DNA of 64,000 nt from Rossellomorea vietnamensis (lineage in GTDB: Bacteria > Bacillota > Bacilli > Bacillales > Bacillaceae_B), in NCBI RefSeq assembly GCF_025398035.1, contig NZ_CP104558.1:3080501-3144500 (forward strand). The letters are read 5' to 3'. The translations under genes and the position numbers were made by a program. The first letter of the stretch is position 1. Each line of letters begins with the position of its first letter. The notes below the pieces were generated by a model. That model searched no databases, was not told where the DNA came from, and saw only the letters and a program-made list of their open reading frames with translations. Positions 3,764-13,020 of this stretch are shown in pieces.

Positions 3764-5002
3764 TTATGAGCTTTTTGCGTTTGGAATTAACTTTAGGGAT
3801 AAAGTATTGTTTTCAGTTTGCTTATTTGAATATTTTACATCCCCTAAAACCCATCCCCATAGAAGCATCAAAATGACGTTGGCTGGAAATATTTCCCATA
3901 TAACAAAGATGTTACTATAAAATGCTATAAAAAATATTAAAAGTGTAGACTTCATATTCTTACAATATAGCAATGTGAAAATTAATACAGCTAAATAGAA
4001 TAAAAACCCAATTATGCCGTAACTACTAAAAACAAAAATATATACACTATCTGAGAAAAACTGTCCATCAAAAAAGTCATAACCAAAAATATTTGTGACA
4101 GTATTAGATCCCAATCCTAACCCCCAACCAAATAAGAAGTCAAAGGAAGAGTTTAGGTTTTGTAAAATGGTATCCCAAACTGCGAAACGTGGCTCTCCTT
4201 GAATATCACGACCACTTATTAAAGGGGAGCGTGATATGAAATATATAGAGGTTAATATCAATGGAATGGATGGAATAAATAATAATCTACTTTTTTTGGT
4301 CAATTTAAATAAAAATATAAAACCCAAAATAATTACCGCACCAAGAAAAGCTGATCTTGAACCACTTATAGAGGCTCCAATCAAGCTTAATAGAATCCAT
4401 TTATTATTTTTTTTGTTATTAGTGAAATAGAATAGAAGACCACAAGAAGCGAATGTAAGTCCGAATATATTTGGGCTTGAAAACGTACCGAAAGGTCTAC
4501 TTCCAAGAATAGTTGATCCGAAAAAAGGAGGAGCATTTAATATTTGATAAATTCCAGCTACTAATTGGATTAAGAGAAAAAATTTAAGCGAATTAGCGAT
4601 TTTTTCCAATGAAACAGTATAGTTATTCGAAGCTAAAATAAATCCTGCATACGCAATAGGAGTATATTGAAAAATCCTTAGGCCGGAAATAGGGACCAGT
4701 AAAGGATACTCTTTAGAAATCATATTTGCTATTTCTAATAATGTATAGCAGAAAAAGAAAATAGTGACTGCCAAAAATGACTTAGAAGGAGATGGATATT
4801 TTTTAATCCAAAAAATCATATAGAAGACAATAATACATAATATAGCTTCTCTTAGAAATCTTAAGCCTGCTTCTTCAGAAGTATGAATGTTTGAGCCTTT
4901 CATGAGTGCCAAAGTCTGTGGCAAATAGGTAATTAATGAAACTAATATGAGAAGGGATATAAGAAAAGTAATATTCTTGTGAAATGAGAATTTAATAGAC
5001 AT
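3764..5002 (-). CDS. Wzy-like polysaccharide polymerase / O-antigen ligase family protein
   Basis: A polytopic membrane protein of about 412 residues with ten or more hydrophobic segments. A large outside loop near the C-terminal third contains GWGLGLGSNTVTN and a glycine-rich ASISGSRSAFLGA segment, features of the O-antigen ligase/polymerase (Wzy_C) family. Such proteins join lipid-linked repeat units on the outer face of the membrane. ATG 5002 is preferred because a GGAGGT lies upstream at 5015-5020; the frame itself extends to 5143. It is AT-rich like the exopolysaccharide genes at 16.8-26 kb and diverges from a beta-helix protein gene. I infer that it polymerises the polymer made by the 14-30 kb operon, which has no polymerase of its own. 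Confidence 0.75.
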   Translation of the reverse strand: MSIKFSFHKNITFLISLLILVSLITYLPQTLALMKGSNIHTSEEAGLRFLREAILCIIVFYMIFWIKKYPSPSKSFLAVTIFFFCYTLLEIANMISKEYPLLVPISGLRIFQYTPIAYAGFILASNNYTVSLEKIANSLKFFLLIQLVAGIYQILNAPPFFGSTILGSRPFGTFSSPNIFGLTFASCGLLFYFTNNKKNNKWILLSLIGASISGSRSAFLGAVIILGFIFLFKLTKKSRLLFIPSIPLILTSIYFISRSPLISGRDIQGEPRFAVWDTILQNLNSSFDFLFGWGLGLGSNTVTNIFGYDFFDGQFFSDSVYIFVFSSYGIIGFLFYLAVLIFTLLYCKNMKSTLLIFFIAFYSNIFVIWEIFPANVILMLLWGWVLGDVKYSNKQTENNTLSLKLIPNAKSS

Positions 5003-5157
5003 ATATGAAATTTTACCTCCACTTACTAAACTTAGAGAATTATACCATGCAAAAATGTAAACGTAAAATCTAAAATAATTTATGTTAGAAGTTCTTTTCG
5101 AAAATAACAATATATCATTAAAGATGATATCCTTATAATACAAAAGGTGGCTATTTT

Positions 5158-6348
5158 ATGAAGTGGTACAGTATTTTGATATTTTTTTGTTTGTTATTAT
5201 TGTTAAGTGGAATTGTAAACGAACTAGAAAATAGACTTGCTCCAAAAGTAATAGACGAGGTATATAGTGTAAAAAAATTTGGTGCTGTGGGTGATGGTAA
5301 AAACGATGACACCGAAGCTATACAAAGGACAATTGATTCTATTGACAATTCTAAAGGTGGATTAGTCTACTTTCCGACCGGAACGTATATAATTTCATCA
5401 ACTTTGTTGATATCAGAAAAAAGTAAGGTTCAAATATCGGGGGAAGGGTTCTCAAGTGTTATCCGAGCTAAAGGTACAAATGATAAGCCAATATCATTTC
5501 CGTTAATCACAGTTTCTAATCAAGGAAGTGCAAAATTTATTGCTAGTGATTTATTATTTCAAATCATTGAATCAGATTCAGATAATGCTTCAGGTATACT
5601 AACTAAAGGAAGCCTGACAGATGTGACTATTCAAAATTGTTGGTTTACTCAAACCAATATGGCTGTTAGGGGAGAATTTGTCACACTTAATTTTTCTAGA
5701 AATACAATTGAATTAAACAAAAGTGGAGGATTAGTTGTTGAAGGAGATACCTTCAGAAAAGTCATTATCGCAGATAACCATTTTTTTGCTAATAATAAAG
5801 CTCATATAAAACTAAATAATACAAACATTAATGAAAAATCGATGAATAATATAACTATTATTGGAAATCAATTTGATCAAGGTTTATCCTCAGCATATAT
5901 TGCAGGTTTCTCTCCTAGTGGAAATGCAGTTGATCTGAACAACATATCTTTATTCTCAATTAGCGGAAATAATTTTAACGGCTATACTCCAAGTACTAAT
6001 CTCATACCAGCAGAAAAACAGGATGGCCATGCTATTAAAGCTATTAATAGTGATAATTTTACTATAACAGGTAACACTTTTTCTAAATATAAGAAATCTG
6101 CCATTTATTTGGATAGTTCTTCTAACTTCAATGTGGATGGAATAGTAAATGGATTTGATGAGGTAGGTGTTGTTATAGTTAATAGTTCTGATTTTGATAT
6201 TGAAATGAATGTAAGTGATTCGAAACAGGGAGTATTAATAAAGGGTAGTAAAAGGTTTCAAGTGGACGGATTATTCAGTGGCAATACAAATAAGAATTTG
6301 CAAATTCTTAATTCAAGTCAAGGAGAAGTTAGTGTACTTCCGGATTGA
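5158..6348 (+). CDS. Exported parallel beta-helix protein (pectate lyase 3 superfamily)
   Basis: The 396-residue product starts with a hydrophobic export segment (residues 5-19) with no clear cleavage site, so it may stay anchored. It then carries the hallmark KKFGAVGDGKNDDTEAIQ of Pectate_lyase_3 / GH28-type beta-helices near residues 39-56. The rest is rich in asparagine and short repeats such as ITGNTFSKYKKSAIYL and ISGNNFNGY that form right-handed beta-helix coils. No clear catalytic triad could be assigned. Its position back-to-back with the Wzy-like gene suggests modification or cleavage of the exported polysaccharide. A structural role in polymer export is an alternative. Confidence 0.75.
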   Translation: MKWYSILIFFCLLLLLSGIVNELENRLAPKVIDEVYSVKKFGAVGDGKNDDTEAIQRTIDSIDNSKGGLVYFPTGTYIISSTLLISEKSKVQISGEGFSSVIRAKGTNDKPISFPLITVSNQGSAKFIASDLLFQIIESDSDNASGILTKGSLTDVTIQNCWFTQTNMAVRGEFVTLNFSRNTIELNKSGGLVVEGDTFRKVIIADNHFFANNKAHIKLNNTNINEKSMNNITIIGNQFDQGLSSAYIAGFSPSGNAVDLNNISLFSISGNNFNGYTPSTNLIPAEKQDGHAIKAINSDNFTITGNTFSKYKKSAIYLDSSSNFNVDGIVNGFDEVGVVIVNSSDFDIEMNVSDSKQGVLIKGSKRFQVDGLFSGNTNKNLQILNSSQGEVSVLPD

Positions 6349-6941: not shown

Positions 6942-7262
6942 CTATTTTTTTTCCATAACCATGTCATAACCCGAATGAATTTCTTTCATCCCAATGACTT
7001 TAAGGAAATGCTGGAGTTTTTTCATACAGAGTTCTTCAAGGTCTCCGATAATATCGAACTGATCAATGACCGCACACTTATCAACTTTTGCTGCTGGAAC
7101 TAGTAGGGACTTTCGATAGGTAACACTGTTGTCCATGGAATACGTAGACACCATGGCTTCCCCGACCTTACAATTACCTTTGGAAAATTCGAACTGAAAT
7201 ACAATCGACAAATCTACATCAGAATATAGAGGATTTACTTTCATGCTTATGCTTTTCATCAT
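6942..7262 (-). CDS. Hypothetical protein, candidate target of the adjacent peptide-signalling system
   Basis: A 106-residue protein without signal peptide or membrane span, beginning MMKSISMKV and ending SGYDMVMEKK. I do not recognise its family. AAAGGGGGC just before the tandem ATG codons is a good ribosome site. A likely promoter lies upstream on the same strand: TTGAAT (complement of 7302-7307), 16 bases, then TACAAT (complement of 7280-7285). One copy of the 17-nt box found beside the PlcR-like regulator gene lies at 7391-7407, about 130 bases upstream of the start, beyond the terminator of the signal peptide gene. That makes this gene the most likely local target of the regulator. Its function is unknown. 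Confidence 0.65.
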   Translation of the reverse strand: MMKSISMKVNPLYSDVDLSIVFQFEFSKGNCKVGEAMVSTYSMDNSVTYRKSLLVPAAKVDKCAVIDQFDIIGDLEELCMKKLQHFLKVIGMKEIHSGYDMVMEKK

Positions 7263-7390
7263 GAAGCCCCCTTTCTTTTATTGTACTTTTATCCTATCAC
7301 AATTCAAAAAAGAGGGAATTTAGGCTTATGAAGCAATATTGGATATACAACTTTGATTAAGGTCTAAATATACCGTTTTTCACTCATTCT

Positions 7391-7407
7391 TATAACTCTA
7401 GGCATAT
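7391..7407 (-). promoter_or_regulatory. 17-nt box, copy 1 (candidate PlcR-like operator)
   Basis: TATAACTCTAGGCATAT is identical to 7785-7801. It is an imperfect palindrome (TAT...ATA ends) that recalls the PlcR box TATGNANNNNTNCATA but does not match it fully. It lies between the peptide gene terminator and the promoter of the 106-aa gene, 129 bases upstream of that start. Confidence 0.55.
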
Positions 7408-7430
7408 AAACAGGAAAATTCATAACAAGA

Positions 7431-7460
7431 AAAAAAGCTTCCTCAAGATGAGAAAGCCCT
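7431..7460 (-). terminator. Terminator of the signal peptide gene
   Basis: On the minus strand GCTTTCTC-ATCTT-GAGGAAGC forms a hairpin followed by a run of seven T. It ends 20 bases after the peptide stop codon and separates the peptide gene from the 106-aa gene. Confidence 0.7.
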
Positions 7461-7480
7461 ATAAAACATTGTTTAAATAC

Positions 7481-7618
7481 TTAGTATGCCCAACCAGGTA
7501 AATCTGTTTGAGGAGTAGTAACATTTGCATCTGCAGATGTACCAGCTGCACTAGTGGTTCCAGCAAATCCTAAGAGCAGGACTGAAGCTGTCAAGATTGT
7601 AAGAAAACGTCTTTTCAT
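7481..7618 (-). CDS. Exported PapR-like signalling peptide precursor
   Basis: A 45-residue precursor with a basic start (MKRRF), a hydrophobic core (LTILTASVLLLGFAG), a TSA-AG signal-peptidase site and a short tail ending QTDLPGWAY. The frame extends upstream to 7696, but the GGGAGGAAAG ribosome site places the start at ATG 7618. PapR, the quorum-sensing peptide of the Bacillus cereus group, has the same design, with an active C-terminal peptide such as ADLPFEF or SDLPFEY. Here the tail keeps the (T/S/A)DLP core. It lies divergent from a PlcR-like regulator gene and has its own terminator. I infer that it is exported, trimmed to a C-terminal peptide and re-imported by an oligopeptide permease to bind that regulator. 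Confidence 0.75.
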   Translation of the reverse strand: MKRRFLTILTASVLLLGFAGTTSAAGTSADANVTTPQTDLPGWAY

Positions 7619-7784
7619 AGGTCTTTCCTCCCTTTCTTCTTTGAAAGAAGATTCGTTATTATAATTGTAAGTAATGTTATAATTATTAAAACACATTTCC
7701 TTTGTTTGTAAAAAGGGAATGTATCCTTCTTTATTCTTATTTTACTAAGAAATTACGGTGTTTTCTACGGTATATAGACAAAAA

Positions 7785-7801
7785 TATAACTCTAGGCATA
7801 T
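7785..7801. promoter_or_regulatory. 17-nt box, copy 2 (candidate PlcR-like operator)
   Basis: Identical to 7391-7407. It ends 15 bases before the regulator start codon, touching its ribosome-site region, and lies 167 bases upstream of the peptide gene start. Binding here could activate the peptide gene and block the regulator gene at the same time. Confidence 0.55.
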
Positions 7802-7816
7802 TTAGGAGAGGGTTTA

Positions 7817-8698
7817 ATGGATTTTGGGGCAGTAGGAAGAAAGATAAAAGAGTTAAGAAAGAATAGTGGACTATCTCAAGAAGAATTGTCTGACGGAATT
7901 TGTACGCAGGCTCAAATCAGTAAGATTGAAAAGGGAGATGTTTTTCCTTATGCCTCTACATTATATCAAATTTCACAGAAGTTAGGGGTGGATGTCAACT
8001 ACTTTTTTGATATCGGTACAACCCCCAGATTGGACTATGTGCAAGAAGTTTTTAAACAACTTCAAATCATGAGAAGAAGTCTGCGATTTGAAGAAATGAT
8101 GGATATTGTACGGACAGAAGAAGTCAATCCGCTCTTCCTTCAAAATAAAAAGAATATGCAGCTGCTCCTTTGGCATAAAGGGATCTATCTTTGGGAAGTG
8201 AAGAAGGATCTTGAATCTTCCATTTCCACGTTAAGAGAAGCTTTAGAAATTACACATGTTAAGGGTAAAGTAATGTTAGAACGGGAAATTGAAATTCTCT
8301 TGACCATTGGGGGTATTTATTATAAGGAGAATAACGAAAAGGCATTGACGGTCTTTGAAGAAGCAAAAGGCCATATCCAAACGCTACCTCACATCAATGA
8401 CTATACCCTTAAGACGAGACTATACTATAACATGTCGAGGGTGTTAACGAAGTTAAGCAGGATTAATGACTCTAATAAATATTGCGAGGATGCCATTAAA
8501 TGGTGTTTAAACAAGGATAGTTTATATTTATTAGGAGAACTGCATTATCAAATCGGTTATAATTTAGAATTGTTGAATCAGCCATTGAAAGCGAAGAGCT
8601 ATATGGAAAAAGCACTGATAGTGTTTGAACTCCAGGAAGATGATAAATACATTAACTTTATCCGAAATAAAATTAAAGAGCTGTCAGAGGTTAATTAA
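7817..8698 (+). CDS. PlcR-like peptide-responsive transcriptional regulator (HTH-XRE + TPR, RRNPP family)
   Basis: The 293-residue protein begins with an XRE-type helix-turn-helix at about residues 6-60 (KIKELRKNSGLSQEELSDGI ... QISKIEKGDVFPYASTLYQI). It continues as helical TPR-type repeats to the end. This is the RRNPP architecture (Rgg, Rap, NprR, PlcR, PrgX), and the length is close to PlcR (285). In that family the TPR domain binds a small re-imported peptide that switches DNA binding. The divergent 45-aa peptide gene supplies a fitting ligand. AGGAGAGGG before ATG 7817 is the ribosome site. The family assignment is firm; that it pairs with this peptide and the two 17-nt boxes is inference from arrangement. 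Confidence 0.85.
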   Translation: MDFGAVGRKIKELRKNSGLSQEELSDGICTQAQISKIEKGDVFPYASTLYQISQKLGVDVNYFFDIGTTPRLDYVQEVFKQLQIMRRSLRFEEMMDIVRTEEVNPLFLQNKKNMQLLLWHKGIYLWEVKKDLESSISTLREALEITHVKGKVMLEREIEILLTIGGIYYKENNEKALTVFEEAKGHIQTLPHINDYTLKTRLYYNMSRVLTKLSRINDSNKYCEDAIKWCLNKDSLYLLGELHYQIGYNLELLNQPLKAKSYMEKALIVFELQEDDKYINFIRNKIKELSEVN

Positions 8699-8724
8699 AC
8701 CGTTTGCTTTTTACCAGCTGTGCG

Positions 8725-8754
8725 AAAAGAACCAGCTCCAGGCTGGTTCTTTTT
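8725..8754 (+). terminator. Terminator of the PlcR-like gene
   Basis: AAGAACCAGC-TCCA-GGCTGGTTCTT followed by T5, 27 bases after the stop codon. Confidence 0.85.
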
Positions 8755-8790
8755 CATCGTTCCATCCAATTCCACCATGTCTATCACCCA

Positions 8791-8804
8791 AAGGTCCGTC
8801 CCTC
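8791..8804. repeat. Single arm of the GGTCCGTCCCT repeat
   Basis: AAGGTCCGTCCCTC is identical to the left arm of the palindrome at 1224-1259 but has no matching right arm here. It lies between two convergent terminators. Confidence 0.6.
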
Positions 8805-8805
8805 A

Positions 8806-8833
8806 TAAAAAAAGCCGGCCACCAAGGCCGACC
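8806..8833 (-). terminator. Terminator of the LCP gene
   Basis: On the minus strand GTCGGCC-TTGGT-GGCCGGC forms a stem with one G-U pair, followed by T7, just after the LCP stop codon. Confidence 0.8.
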
Positions 8834-8840
8834 TTCCACT

Positions 8841-9773
8841 TTATTCATTCAAATCCAAATGATCCTTCAATTCACTCTGTACTTTTTGTCTTTCTTCTTC
8901 AGGCACAAGATAGTAGTAAATGCCGCCGATTTTCGTACCTTCTCCTGCGATTTGGCTTTGAGAAATACTTCCGGTTGCACTCTTATAGTTCTTTTGAATT
9001 TCCACCATTTCATCCAACGTTAGGTTGGTCTTTACGTTCTCACCGATCGCTCCGAAAATATCGCCATAGTTCCAAAGTGAAGAGACGCTGGCACCTTCTC
9101 GGATTACGGCTTCAATCACCTGGCGTTGCCGGGCCTGCCTTCCGAAGTCTCCTCTTGGATCCTCATAACGCATACGGGAATACGCAAGGGCTTCTTTCCC
9201 AGTCAGGGACAATGTGCCTTCTTTAAATGTGTACCCCTCGTAGTTGAAGGTGAATTTGTTTTGTACATTTACGCCTCCAACTGCATCTACGATATCTCTA
9301 AAGCCTTCCATGTTGATTTTGGCGTAATAATCAATTGGGATATCAAGGAAATTCTCTACAGTATCCATGGACATTTCAACCCCGCCGAAAGCATAGGCAT
9401 GGTTAATTTTATCTTCTGTTCCTTTACCCACAATTTCCACTCTTGTATCTCGGGGGATACTAAGCATTTTCGTTGATTTTTCATGAGGATTTACCGTTAC
9501 GACAATCATGGAATCGGAACGGCCCCTATCACCGGCCCTCTCATCCACTCCAAGAAGCAGAACTGAAAAGGGATGCTTTTTCTCAAATTTCACTTCTTCC
9601 GCTCGTTTATCCGATTTCGGTCGATCGATCTCTTCGTTCATCGTTTCAGCCGTTTTACTCAAGGAATGATAAATGGAATAGGCATATCCGGCCCCTGCTA
9701 CTAGAAGGAGGAGGAAGATAATGCCCACCACTTTCGGCCACTTGCGTTTTTTTTGATGTCTATCCGTTCTCAA
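8841..9773 (-). CDS. LytR-CpsA-Psr (LCP) family wall-polymer transferase
   Basis: A 310-residue type II membrane protein with a basic cytoplasmic start, a membrane span (GIIFLLLLVAGAGYAY) near residues 17-32 and an outer LCP domain. LCP marks are FSVLLLGVDERAGDRGRSDSMIVVTVNP, the SIPRDTRVEIVG loop with conserved arginine, and the later YSRMRYEDPRGDFGRQARQRQV segment. LCP enzymes move anionic or capsular polymers from lipid carriers to peptidoglycan. A TTG start at 9773 is chosen because AGGTGGG lies seven bases upstream; GTG 9785 lacks a ribosome site. Near the exopolysaccharide operon it may anchor that polymer, although teichoic acid is equally possible. Confidence 0.9.
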   Translation of the reverse strand: MRTDRHQKKRKWPKVVGIIFLLLLVAGAGYAYSIYHSLSKTAETMNEEIDRPKSDKRAEEVKFEKKHPFSVLLLGVDERAGDRGRSDSMIVVTVNPHEKSTKMLSIPRDTRVEIVGKGTEDKINHAYAFGGVEMSMDTVENFLDIPIDYYAKINMEGFRDIVDAVGGVNVQNKFTFNYEGYTFKEGTLSLTGKEALAYSRMRYEDPRGDFGRQARQRQVIEAVIREGASVSSLWNYGDIFGAIGENVKTNLTLDEMVEIQKNYKSATGSISQSQIAGEGTKIGGIYYYLVPEEERQKVQSELKDHLDLNE

Positions 9774-9931
9774 ATTGTTTCCCACCTATAATAATTTTTT
9801 TTACATATAAGAAAAATATACTAGAAAATCGTCGAAAAAGAAATACATTAGTAAAATTTTGTCTGACTATGGAAATGCATAAAGAAAATCCCAATGAATG
9901 TAAGGTTTTACACGGATGAGTTGGATTATTT

Positions 9932-9940
9932 TGGTATAAT
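9932..9940 (+). promoter_or_regulatory. Extended -10 promoter of the CAP-domain gene
   Basis: TGGTATAAT is an extended -10 element located 30 bases before the TTG start; no strong -35 is evident. Confidence 0.5.
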
Positions 9941-9970
9941 AAAAGTAGACAACCGGAGGGAGAGGATACT

Positions 9971-11716
9971 TTGATAAAAAAAGTCGGAATCACACTTTTG
10001 TTATTCAGTCTTGTATTCAGTCTGATTCAGATGGACCAGGCAAAAGCAGATACGAGTGTAGATCGAATATTTGGCGAAAGCAGATATGATACAGCTGGAA
10101 TGATTTCTCTAAGGGGATGGGATCAGGCGGAAACCGTTGTCATCGCCAGCGGGGAAACATTCCCGGACGCACTGGCAGGGGGCCCCCTTGCTTATCAATT
10201 GGATGCCCCAATCTTGCTGACCTATAAGCATCGGCTGCCCGCGGAAACAAGAAAGTTCATCAACATACTGGAAGCAAAGCAGGTATACATATTAGGCGGG
10301 GTCGGAGCGATTGACCTCTATGTGGAAAAGCAGCTAAAAGACTTAGGCTTGGAGATTACGAGAATCGGAGGAGATGACCGGTTTCAGACCGCTGCGAAAA
10401 TAGCAGACTATCTCCCTTCTGATCAAGCCATCGTGGCAAACGGCCGCAACTTCCCGGATGCACTGGCAGTGGCACCATATGCCGCAAAGAACGGCATCCC
10501 GATTGTTTTAACGGAATCGACAGACTTACCTGAAAGTACTAAAGAAATAACAGATGAAAAAGAAGACACCATCATTGTAGGAGGGAAAAGCGTGATTTCT
10601 TCACGTGTCGCAACAGATCTTCCTTCTTCAATCCGCTATGGCGGTGCCGATCGTTATGAGACTGCAAAGAATATCATAGAAGGATTGCCCCTTGGGAAGG
10701 AAACGGCCTACGTCGCTACGGGCGGTAATTTCGCCGATGCACTGGCAGGGTCTGTTCTGGCGGCTAAAGACAACGCCCCGATTCTTCTAGTGAAGAAGGA
10801 TGATATCCCTCCTTCCATTGAAAGTCTAGTAAACTCCTATCCATCGTTTTCGATCTTTGGCGGGAAAAATGCAATATCTTATAAAGTGGAAGAACAATTA
10901 GTAGGCAGTACCGAAGAGTTTCAGTTCCAGGGAGTCCATGTGGATGCGACAGAAGCATTTTTGCGTTCCGTCTTAGGAGAACCTGACCGAATCGATGAGA
11001 GCCGGTTCAACTTTGATTGGTATGTGTATAACGAAGATCCTAAAACATATATTCAATTTGGGGTATTTCACGGGATCGTGGTGGCGATGTACTCAAATTC
11101 CGATAGCTGGACGTCGCAGTCGGGTCTTAAGCTGGGCATGAACAAACCGGAAGTGCGGAGTCTCATGGATCAAATCGGTGCTGAGTATGACCAGGGAAGC
11201 GACTACGTCTATGATGAGAAGCTCATCCGTTTGTATTATGACCAGAACGACGGTGATACATTAACAGGGATTTTCATGGTCAGGCAGGACTTCACGATGA
11301 CTAACCCTGATTTCAATAAAGAAAACGTAAGAATCAGTATGGAGAAACAACTTCTCGATCAAGGCAATGCATTGCGTGCCCGTCATTTCCTCGAGCCTCT
11401 CGAGGAAGATTCAAGGGCCCGGGAAGTGGCAAGGGCCCATAGTAAAGACATGGCCATCCGAAACTTCTTCAGTCATGATAACCCCGATGGCCTCACACCC
11501 TTTCAGAGAATGGAACAGGCGGGTATCTCCTACTCATCAGCAGGGGAAAACATCGCAGCGGGTCAGTTAAATGCCATAGCCGTCCATGACGCTTGGGTGA
11601 ATTCACCCGGCCACCGCAAAAACATCCTCAGTCCCCTCTATGAAAAACTGGGAGTGGGTACATACTACGGAGGAGAGTACGGAGTGTACTACACCCAGGA
11701 CTTCTACACACCATAA
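9971..11716 (+). CDS. Secreted cell-wall protein: three CWB2 repeats plus CAP domain
   Basis: This 581-residue exported protein begins at a TTG codon with GGAGGGAGAGG upstream. A signal peptide (1-27, ending QAKADT) is followed by three cell-wall-binding type 2 repeats (about 30-120, 125-210 and 215-310). Their marks are DRIFGESRYDTA, FPDALAGGPLA, FPDALAVAPYA and FADALAGSVLA. Next come a CAP-associated N-terminal type domain (about 325-450, LGEPDRID and LKLGMNKPEVRSLM) and a C-terminal CAP/SCP domain with SHDNPDGLTPF, GENIAAG and WVNSPGHRKNIL. CWB2 repeats bind anionic wall polymers non-covalently. The role of bacterial CAP domains is poorly known. A bidirectional terminator follows. Confidence 0.92.
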   Translation: MIKKVGITLLLFSLVFSLIQMDQAKADTSVDRIFGESRYDTAGMISLRGWDQAETVVIASGETFPDALAGGPLAYQLDAPILLTYKHRLPAETRKFINILEAKQVYILGGVGAIDLYVEKQLKDLGLEITRIGGDDRFQTAAKIADYLPSDQAIVANGRNFPDALAVAPYAAKNGIPIVLTESTDLPESTKEITDEKEDTIIVGGKSVISSRVATDLPSSIRYGGADRYETAKNIIEGLPLGKETAYVATGGNFADALAGSVLAAKDNAPILLVKKDDIPPSIESLVNSYPSFSIFGGKNAISYKVEEQLVGSTEEFQFQGVHVDATEAFLRSVLGEPDRIDESRFNFDWYVYNEDPKTYIQFGVFHGIVVAMYSNSDSWTSQSGLKLGMNKPEVRSLMDQIGAEYDQGSDYVYDEKLIRLYYDQNDGDTLTGIFMVRQDFTMTNPDFNKENVRISMEKQLLDQGNALRARHFLEPLEEDSRAREVARAHSKDMAIRNFFSHDNPDGLTPFQRMEQAGISYSSAGENIAAGQLNAIAVHDAWVNSPGHRKNILSPLYEKLGVGTYYGGEYGVYYTQDFYTP

Positions 11717-11721
11717 AAAAA

Positions 11722-11755
11722 TAGATCCCGATGACATCATCGTCATCGGGATCTA
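11722..11755. terminator. Bidirectional terminator between convergent wall genes
   Basis: TAGATCCCGATGAC-ATCATC-GTCATCGGGATCTA is a perfect 14-base-pair hairpin with A-rich left and T-rich right edges. It serves the CAP gene and the LysM gene. Confidence 0.9.
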
Positions 11756-11760
11756 CTATT

Positions 11761-13020
11761 TTATAACTCATAAAATCTCTTAAAACCATCAAACTTGGAT
11801 TTCCAGTAGGAGTTACTCAGGCTGGATATTTCGACTCCATTATCCCCTGCATGTATGAATTCATTATTCCCTACATAAATGCCTAAGTGAGAAATGCCTT
11901 TTTTATATGTATTTTCAAAGAATACAATATCTCCCGGCTGAGGAGAATTCACATAATAGGAACGGCTATAATACCCTTCACTTGAAAGACGCTTGACATC
12001 CTTGGCTCCGGCTTCCTTGAAAACGTAGTAGATGAAACCACTGCAATCAAAGCCGCCAACCGAAGATCCTCCCCATACATAAGGAGTTCCTATATGAGAC
12101 GTTGCCTCACTTAATAATTTATTTACAGAGAAAGTGGATGATGAACTTGAGGCAGGAGGCTTAACGTCTTGAGCCGTCCCTTTTGTTCCCTTTACTTTTA
12201 ACACCTGTCCAACACGAAGGAAGTCGCTCGAAAGTCCGTTCAGGCTCTTCAATTCGCTTACGCTGACACCGAATGCTGCACCGATATAAGACAAGGTATC
12301 ACCGGACTTTACCGTGTATGTAGTCACTGAATGATTCTGTTGCGGTTTAGCAGGAGCGGGTGCTGGTTTGGCAGGTGCAGTCTGCGATCCTGAGTTCGAC
12401 ACTTTCAGAACTTGTCCAATAAACAGGAAATCACTTGATAAACCGTTCAGTTTTTTCAGTTCTGCTACAGTCACACCGAATTTTATCCCGATATGAGATA
12501 ACGTATCCCCTGACTTCACCGAATAGCTTGAAGTGTGAGCATCTTGAGCTGGCTTTTCAGGTGAGGGCGCAGCCGGTTTACTTGGAGCAGTCGTGGTTCC
12601 CGCTTTCGACACCTTTAATACCTGTCCTGGATAGATCAGGTGATTACGTAAACCATTCCAGCTCATTAAATCATTTAGCGTAATAGAATGAGTAGCAGCA
12701 ATCTGACCTAATGTATCCCCGGATTTGATCGTATACGTATTGGCGGACGTTTGCCCCGTAGTTTGCTTTGTCGGCTTAGATGCTTTAGGAGGTTGAGACC
12801 CGTTGGCTGCCACCTTCAATACCTGATTCGGAAAGATCATTTCCGAATGGAGCTTGTTCAAGCTCTTCAAGTTGGCGATGGTAGTGTCGTATTTAGTTGC
12901 GATCAGCCAAAGGGAGTCACCTGATTCCACCTTATGGGTGCTTGCAGCGGCATAGCTAACAAACGAAGACGAGAGAACAGCCGTAGCTGCTACAGATACT
13001 AATGTCTTTTTCACATACAC
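11761..13020 (-). CDS. LysM-NlpC/P60 peptidoglycan endopeptidase
   Basis: The 419-residue protein has a signal peptide (1-26), four LysM domains (28-70, 95-137, 165-207 and 234-276) joined by Pro/Ala/Lys linkers, and a C-terminal NlpC/P60 domain (about 300-419). The catalytic cysteine is in DCSG (Cys326), with histidines in ISHLG and FIHAG. This is the design of B. subtilis LytE/LytF/CwlS D,L-endopeptidases, which cut the D-gamma-glutamyl-meso-DAP bond of stem peptides during cell separation and elongation. Four LysM modules place it between LytE (three) and LytF (five), so no gene name is assigned. It acts outside the membrane on the wall. Confidence 0.93.
   Translation of the reverse strand: MYVKKTLVSVAATAVLSSSFVSYAAASTHKVESGDSLWLIATKYDTTIANLKSLNKLHSEMIFPNQVLKVAANGSQPPKASKPTKQTTGQTSANTYTIKSGDTLGQIAATHSITLNDLMSWNGLRNHLIYPGQVLKVSKAGTTTAPSKPAAPSPEKPAQDAHTSSYSVKSGDTLSHIGIKFGVTVAELKKLNGLSSDFLFIGQVLKVSNSGSQTAPAKPAPAPAKPQQNHSVTTYTVKSGDTLSYIGAAFGVSVSELKSLNGLSSDFLRVGQVLKVKGTKGTAQDVKPPASSSSSTFSVNKLLSEATSHIGTPYVWGGSSVGGFDCSGFIYYVFKEAGAKDVKRLSSEGYYSRSYYVNSPQPGDIVFFENTYKKGISHLGIYVGNNEFIHAGDNGVEISSLSNSYWKSKFDGFKRFYEL

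Follow-up and report, generated by a model that had tools for sequence, protein, structure and literature searches.

A candidate PlcR/PapR-like signalling module with a fixed core and a fast-changing signal in Rossellomorea

The gene pair and its surroundings

The window considered here is the whole stretch of 64,000 nucleotides of Rossellomorea vietnamensis DNA that was analysed; the host genome is a single contig of 4.52 Mb. Among named relatives, which place it in Rossellomorea, Bacillus sp. RO3 gives the best match (92 percent). The window contains a small gene encoding a PapR-like precursor and, divergent from it, a gene encoding a PlcR-like regulator (Table 1). An initial annotation, made from the sequence alone, had reported a 45-aa export-type precursor ending in QTDLPGWAY next to an HTH-TPR regulator, paired boxes and a terminator, and all these features are indeed present. 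The export-type start was judged from the sequence pattern. The mature signal, with its ends, is predicted to be about DLPGWAY.

Table 1. Features of the candidate module (positions in the window, except in the last line)
Feature	Position	Strand	Description
106-aa gene	6942..7262	-	predicted target via box 2; small alpha/beta protein
Box 2	7391..7406	+	predicted operator; 16-mer identical to box 1; 128 nt before start of the 106-aa gene
Terminator-like stem-loop	7434..7460	-	12 pairs followed by a T run; between peptide stop and box 2
Propeptide gene	7481..7618	-	45 aa, MKRRFLTIL...PQTDLPGWAY; export-type N-terminus; PapR-like
Precursor amino-acid sequence	7618-7481	-	MKRRFLTILTASVLLLGFAGTTSAAGTSADANVTTPQTDLPGWAY
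Predicted signal core	7484..7504	-	DLPGWAY, last 7 codons, C-terminal of the propeptide gene
Box 1	7785..7800	+	TATAACTCTAGGCATA; 16 nt before regulator start, 166 nt before peptide start; predicted shared operator
Receptor (regulator) gene	7817..8698	+	293 aa; N-terminal HTH and TPR (RNPP_C); PlcR-like
Probable recognition-helix segment	7904..7924	+	TQAQISK of the HTH
NprX-like export-type peptide	L162:2021-2137	-	38 aa; follows the NprR-like gene; tail EEEFPPFSTKL

The regulator belongs to the Pfam family RNPP_C (E 1.6e-13, 51.1 bits with a cut-off of 26.5) and also matches HTH_3/HTH_19 and TPR_8. Its size and domains are those of RRNPP regulators (about 250-500 aa, TPR, HTH). The top sequence match in the PDB is PlcR (E 1.6e-17). 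The AlphaFold model of the regulator, built from 21 sequences, has pLDDT 88.9, and a Foldseek search with this model retrieves the PlcR-PapR7-DNA complex first (E 6.0e-12). PlcR chains occupy ranks 1-5 with TM-scores of 0.61-0.68 by query and rmsd of 8-12 A; we read this large rmsd as suggesting that the domains match better than their relative placement. ComR, Rgg2 and PrgX are among the other matches.

The region 7200-8850 contains three terminator-like sites, compared to 1.1 (sd 1.0) in shuffled sequences. The promoter scan of the locus produced no excess (6 vs 5.7 in shuffles).

The module was also said to lie beside surface-polymer genes. Indeed, the neighbours at 3764-6348 and 8841-13020 encode Wzy_C O-antigen-ligase-like, pectate-lyase-like, LCP, CWB2-CAP and LysM-NlpC/P60 proteins. 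The link is weak, however: of 50 loci, many with just 1.5 kb of flank, 19 gave a match to the LCP-family neighbour, and the LCP gene of the window has no box upstream. In another locus (L116:4690-5630) the LCP-family gene adjoining the receptor matches as three contiguous pieces and looks frameshifted.

Conservation of the pair and diversity of the tails

The receptor was found in 35 of 36 Rossellomorea genomes with identity of at least 61 percent. The only genome without a match, G017, is 84 percent complete. All 55 orthologous loci, namely 35 from the genus and 20 named ones that in part repeat the same strains, contain a divergent export-type peptide with an LP tail, whose start is 183-205 nt from the receptor start. 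Thus, the adjacent conserved short propeptide of exported type, characteristic of RRNPP systems, is found at 55/55 loci, and a separate script recovered it at 35/35 genus loci. The pairing of peptide and receptor exceeds chance. Absence of the peptide gene next to regulator orthologues, which would have spoken against the initial annotation, was not observed at any of the 35 genus loci.

The tail is a core of 6-7 residues containing LP and usually ending in an aromatic residue or His; the linker preceding it varies and gains or loses residues. LP is present in 55/55 tails and [DE]LP in 52/55, the exceptions being TLPGKAY (once) and PLPPVY (twice). There are 32 distinct ends if the last eight residues are considered, and 24 distinct cores counted from the residue preceding LP onward, e.g. 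DLPGWAY, ELPDNPY, ELPTTQH, ELPNAY, ELPSVY, ELPSLF, ELPPML. Hence DLPGWAY, initially described as a new peptide tail, does differ from PapR, but it is no lone variant, being one of at least 24 cores. Residing on one conserved scaffold, these 24 cores form a natural series for the study of co-change in peptide-receptor specificity.

Outside the genus, the receptor (E <= 1e-85) was found in 25 genomes from eight genera when 397 genomes sampled from the order were searched; 16 additional matches come from the genus itself. A divergent export-type peptide with LP is present at 21 of these 25 loci. No LP-containing peptide was found at the other four: three have no candidate, and one has a repeated motif without LP. 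At L244 (G058:C2:233130-236984) the precursor next to an orthologous receptor has five copies of IPFPPRML and no LP, perhaps owing to a replacement of the signal core. In the precursors of L230 and L233 the core is internal.

More distant relatives of the receptor are encoded in 46 plasmid and 5 phage records, with the best identity of 42.8 percent. The annotation of the two plasmid loci inspected contains no peptide.

Candidate operators and predicted regulon

The 16-mer TATAACTCTAGGCATA occurs exactly twice in the 4.52-Mb genome, as boxes 1 and 2. The corresponding consensus, the PlcR-type palindrome TATAAYTNTAGGMATA, is located 16-23 nt upstream of the receptor start at all 42 distinct loci (40 exact, two with one mismatch). 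Box 2 (at most 2 mismatches) was found beyond the peptide stop at 38 of the 42, and 37 of these 38 second boxes are 123-150 nt upstream of a homologue of the 106-aa gene. At 21/25 loci from other genera, box 1 is present with at most one mismatch; at the remaining four (L246-L249, all from one genus) it is missing within 60 nt even if 2 mismatches are allowed.

As a background control, 21 genomes with the receptor were compared to 20 receptor-free ones, taken as the first 20 in the list that gave no match. An exact box was found in 20 of the former and in 2 of the latter. The former figure largely reflects the box of the locus itself, and therefore it is the latter one that is informative.

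The R. vietnamensis genome has three exact consensus boxes, and diverged boxes would escape an exact search. These three sites adjoin both genes of the pair, the 106-aa gene, an NprR-like gene and, divergent from it, a gene of 342 aa. The regulon is thus predicted to be small. Candidate sites beyond these three were rejected for now, as the search with one mismatch yielded five sites, the same as the reversed control. Similarly, allowing up to three mismatches from TATAACTCTAGGCATA produced 20 sites compared to 58 in the control, and no larger regulon emerged.

The 106-aa protein does not belong to any Pfam family. Its model (pLDDT 80.6) is weakly GNAT-like, with the best Foldseek E of 0.02.

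A related 16-mer, TATTCATCTAGGCATA, has three exact copies in the genome (G000:C1:3193142, 3478503 and 4120259; loci L022, L023, L026). One of them precedes a gene taken by eye for degS.

The third box and an NprR-NprX-like pair

The sole further exact consensus match in the genome precedes a gene encoding a 418-aa HTH-TPR protein, whose nearest PDB relative is NprR (E 1.1e-9). This gene is followed by an NprX-like peptide gene (Table 1). Among 30 NprR-like homologues that were read, 28 are followed by an export-type peptide, mostly with the motif EE[ED]FPP[FY]S. On the other side of the third box, at a distance of 113 nt, starts the divergent 342-aa gene, which could be the target instead.

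Of 34 genus genomes with the NprR-like gene, 32 have an exact box 84-195 nt before it (28 of 30 loci read, and four more from coordinates). The two exceptions among the 30 are G017, with one mismatch, and a locus cut by a contig end. This is analogous to the situation in the B. cereus group, where a PlcR box is described in the nprR promoter region and PlcR-PapR is described as activating nprR-nprX (PMC7793685, PMC4147580, PMC4873490).

Outside the genus, 21 of the 25 receptor genomes were tested for this link (G184, G208, G233 and G299 being left out). An NprR-like gene (E <= 1e-40) was found in two of them, and neither has a nearby box. Beyond the genus there is thus no support for an ancient PlcR-NprR cascade shared by descent with B. 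cereus. Accordingly, we treat the cascade as a feature of the genus; this connection may have evolved on two occasions, or it may have disappeared elsewhere.

Proposed mechanism

The gene pair, its conservation, the selection on the tail described below and the positions of the boxes are seen at the sequence level. They make it very probable that the locus is a PlcR/PapR-like quorum-sensing module of the RRNPP type, in which the released tail binds the regulator, and the boxes control the pair itself, the 106-aa gene and the NprR-NprX-like pair. By analogy with characterized systems we infer export, processing, import, binding and the sign of regulation as follows. The precursor would be exported and its tail, about DLPGWAY, trimmed free. 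The tail would be re-imported by an oligopeptide permease and bind in the TPR groove of the divergent regulator. Then a dimer of the regulator would bind the palindromic 16-bp boxes. Firstly, box 1, situated between both genes, is the probable shared operator and would raise transcription of the peptide gene; as it directly precedes the ribosome-binding site of the regulator, it may lower the regulator's own transcription. Secondly, box 2 would drive the 106-aa gene. Finally, the third box, outside the window, would drive the NprR-NprX-like second pair, leading to a two-step cascade. This link offers a test of such a cascade.

The position of box 1, 16-23 nt before the receptor start at 42/42 distinct loci, is apt for blocking. 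Instead of activating as PlcR does, the regulator might be a repressor that is relieved by the peptide, like TprA by PhrA. The TprA/PhrA pair, described as an apparent orthologue of PlcR/PapR, consists of a repressor and an antagonist (PMC4873490). However, box 2 and the nprR box are at activator-like distances from their genes (84-195 nt upstream), and B. cereus nprR, with the PlcR box in its promoter region, is described as positively controlled by PlcR (PMC7793685). Hence we consider repression doubtful, and activation of the PlcR type remains the preferred mode.

A somewhat less probable possibility, and in our opinion an unlikely one, is that the NprR-like protein, by binding the third box, acts on its own gene. 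The box is indeed tied to that gene, being present in 32 of the 34 genomes, and in two genomes without an NprR-like gene (G014 and G029, E <= 1e-60) the only exact box is the one at the receptor. On the other hand, the letters of this box are those of box 1 in several members of the genus, TATAATTATAGGAATA, and genomes that lack the NprR-like gene still have box 1. In addition, the nprR-like site has a mismatch in G017, where no receptor was found; this is a single case from a genome that is 84 percent complete. Binding of the PlcR-like regulator to all three boxes thus remains the favoured assignment.

Multi-copy precursors and selection on the signal

Nine of the 35 genus precursors contain 3-5 identical copies of the core. 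Outside the genus, the precursor of L248 has eight copies. At L250 (G354:C1:2932858-2936715) two tandem propeptide genes accompany one receptor; one encodes ELPSIH once, and the second encodes ELPPIH six times and ELPSIH once.

Codons were compared between the copies in 12 multi-copy genes, several of which come from close species. The 426 codon pairs include 207 synonymous differences and no amino-acid differences, where the copies were located by [EP]LP, and hence only the last three residues are independent of that choice. This set does not include multi-copy genes beyond the 55 loci, nor L114-L118, which are duplicates of strains, nor L124, a near-twin. Outside the 12-gene set, copies differing in one residue were observed in L240 (one ELPGVY, three ELPGVH) and in L250.

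The same tendency is seen in the window precursor. When the window is compared to its closest relative, one synonymous and no amino-acid differences are found in the final seven codons, whereas the other 38 codons have 11 synonymous and 11 amino-acid differences. A change of an amino acid in the tail was observed in one of ten close pairs compared (L030/L031). Thus the signal core is apparently held by selection within precursors, and drift of the C-terminal residues, which would have spoken against a signal, is not what the copies of the 12 genes reveal. The repeated precursors offer a test of signal dose.

That the small ORF might be an exported bacteriocin-like or cell-surface peptide, incidentally neighbouring the regulator, is highly improbable, as the very weak NCBIfam match to JUQZ_fam_ocin (E 0.028, 14.7 bits with a cut-off of 40) is opposed by the retention of the 6-7 residue LP core in the tail while the linker changes, by the preservation of this core in repeated copies, and by the PlcR-like receptor adjoining the peptide at 55/55 loci.

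Receptor residues

The segment TQAQISK is, as we assume from general HTH anatomy, the recognition helix. The HTH positions Q31, A32, Q33, S35 and K36 are invariant in 40/40 orthologues, which parallels the near-constancy of the box.

In B. cereus PlcR, the residues Lys89, Gln237 and Tyr275 are described as contacting Glu6 of PapR (PMC6568020). They align with Leu89, Glu241 and Tyr278 of the window receptor. Among the 40 orthologues, position 89 is L/M/V in 27, position 241 is E in 37, and position 278 is Y/F in 32. These altered contacts fit tails without glutamate at the corresponding place, such as that of the window. The tails ELPNEY of L046 and L091, unlike the window tail, do contain a glutamate in the position equivalent to Glu6 of PapR.

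Of 11 receptors with LPT peptides, eight have His at position 205 (Asn201 of PlcR) and three keep Asn; none of the 29 other receptors has His there. Since only two lineages stand behind this association, we consider it a lead.

Comparison with known systems

In several respects the pair resembles PlcR/PapR, a system best known for switching virulence in the B. cereus group. Both receptors are HTH-TPR proteins of about 290 aa with 27 percent identity (75/279 aligned residues). The precursors are of similar size, PapR being reported as 48 aa (PMC4147580), and have a D/E-L-P core in the C-terminal tail, PapR7 being given as ADLPFEF (PMC6568020). The operators are 16-bp palindromes with TAT...ATA ends and also precede the nprR-like gene. 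In both cases there are multiple variants of the signal, B. cereus being described as having four specificity groups (PMC4147580).

However, while the pair is PlcR/PapR-like, as initially annotated, strict membership in PlcR/PapR does not follow, although fold and sequence both put PlcR first. The gene order is different: in B. thuringiensis papR is described as lying 70 bp downstream of plcR (PMC4147580), whereas here the genes are divergent at 55/55 loci. The PlcR box is reported as TATGnAnnnnTnCATA (PMC2464732), and here it is TATAAYTNTAGGMATA, with the fixed G4, A6 and T11 changed. The window tail lacks PapR Glu6, and two of the PlcR residues contacting it are replaced (K89 by L/M/V in 27/40 orthologues, Q237 by E in 37/40). 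The PlcR regulon is described as comprising 45 genes (PMC4147580), compared to three exact boxes in this genome. Multi-copy precursors, at 9/35 genus loci, are a further difference. Nor can the tree place PlcR reliably: its branch has a length of 3.98 and is joined to another long row, and the program warns that this join may be false.

PlcRa/PapRa of B. cereus is similar in having a receptor of the PlcR fold, an exported precursor encoded upstream of the receptor gene, and a tail, CSIPYEY, whose core contains P (PMC3519770). The difference is that PapRa7 is described as internal in its precursor, with one pherotype suggested (PMC4147580), whereas here the signal is C-terminal at 55/55 loci and varies between species. 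The second pair, a 418-aa HTH-TPR protein nearest to NprR followed by a 38-aa export-type peptide, resembles NprR/NprX, but its tail is EEEFPPFSTKL in place of SKPDIVG given for B. thuringiensis (PMC4147580).

Several identical copies per precursor are a feature shared with the repeated-propeptide systems of the Rap-Phr, PlcR, NprR and AimR subfamilies. Up to six copies are described for these, with repeats in 3 of 15 atypically large PlcR-type precursors (mBio 2022, PMC9765709), and up to eight signal copies are reported for Phr (PLoS Biol 2024, PMC11343458). In addition, RRNPP_detector lists many candidate clusters (PMC10075063). The kind of system and repeated precursors are thus already known, and the pair considered here appears to be a variant with a fixed core and a fast-changing signal.

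The word Rossellomorea is absent from the main texts of PMC9765709 and PMC10075063. A literature search found no paper with the tails ELPSVY, ELPPVY, ELPPIY or DLPGWAY, and none on quorum sensing in Rossellomorea, judged by title and the start of the abstract; as supplementary tables, e.g. the RRNPP_detector data, were beyond its reach, this absence is weak evidence. The present analysis extends a pair related to PlcR/PapR to 35 of 36 genomes of another genus and to eight further genera of the order sample.

Paralogues without a recognisable peptide gene

The genome contains two further receptors, 51 and 49 percent identical to the regulator; these two paralogues are located at G000:C1:3261153-3262025 and 3398555-3399430. 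In the tree, 35 genus orthologues form one group (support 91/97, below the star of the program) and 21 paralogues another (support 100/99). None of the 38 paralogues from the 15 regions examined, a subset of the genus, has an export-type [DE]LP ORF within 800 nt on either side; the same script recovers the peptide at 35/35 orthologues. No peptide was found at the second receptor copies in other genera either (L251 and L252).

HTH position 33 is L in 33/38 paralogues versus Q in 40/40 orthologues. At the same time, the residues Y204, R208, Y244 and E251 are retained in 35-37 of the 38. Peptide-free paralogues with retained TPR residues and a changed helix are as expected of receptors listening without speaking, for which the term "eavesdropper" is used among RRNPP receptors (PMC9765709). 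A tentative interpretation, to which we assign a limited probability, is that one fast-evolving ELP/DLP pheromone addresses both the cognate receptor and the clade of paralogues, and is read out at different DNA sites. If true, this would mean one signal and many listeners within one cell.

Some paralogues are clustered. Locus L094 (G012:C1:3713556-3724415) contains a tandem row of seven near-complete PlcR-like paralogues and fragments, and L095 (G011:C10:91985-100572) contains five tandem PlcR-like paralogues; in both rows there is no exported [DE]LP peptide between the paralogues.
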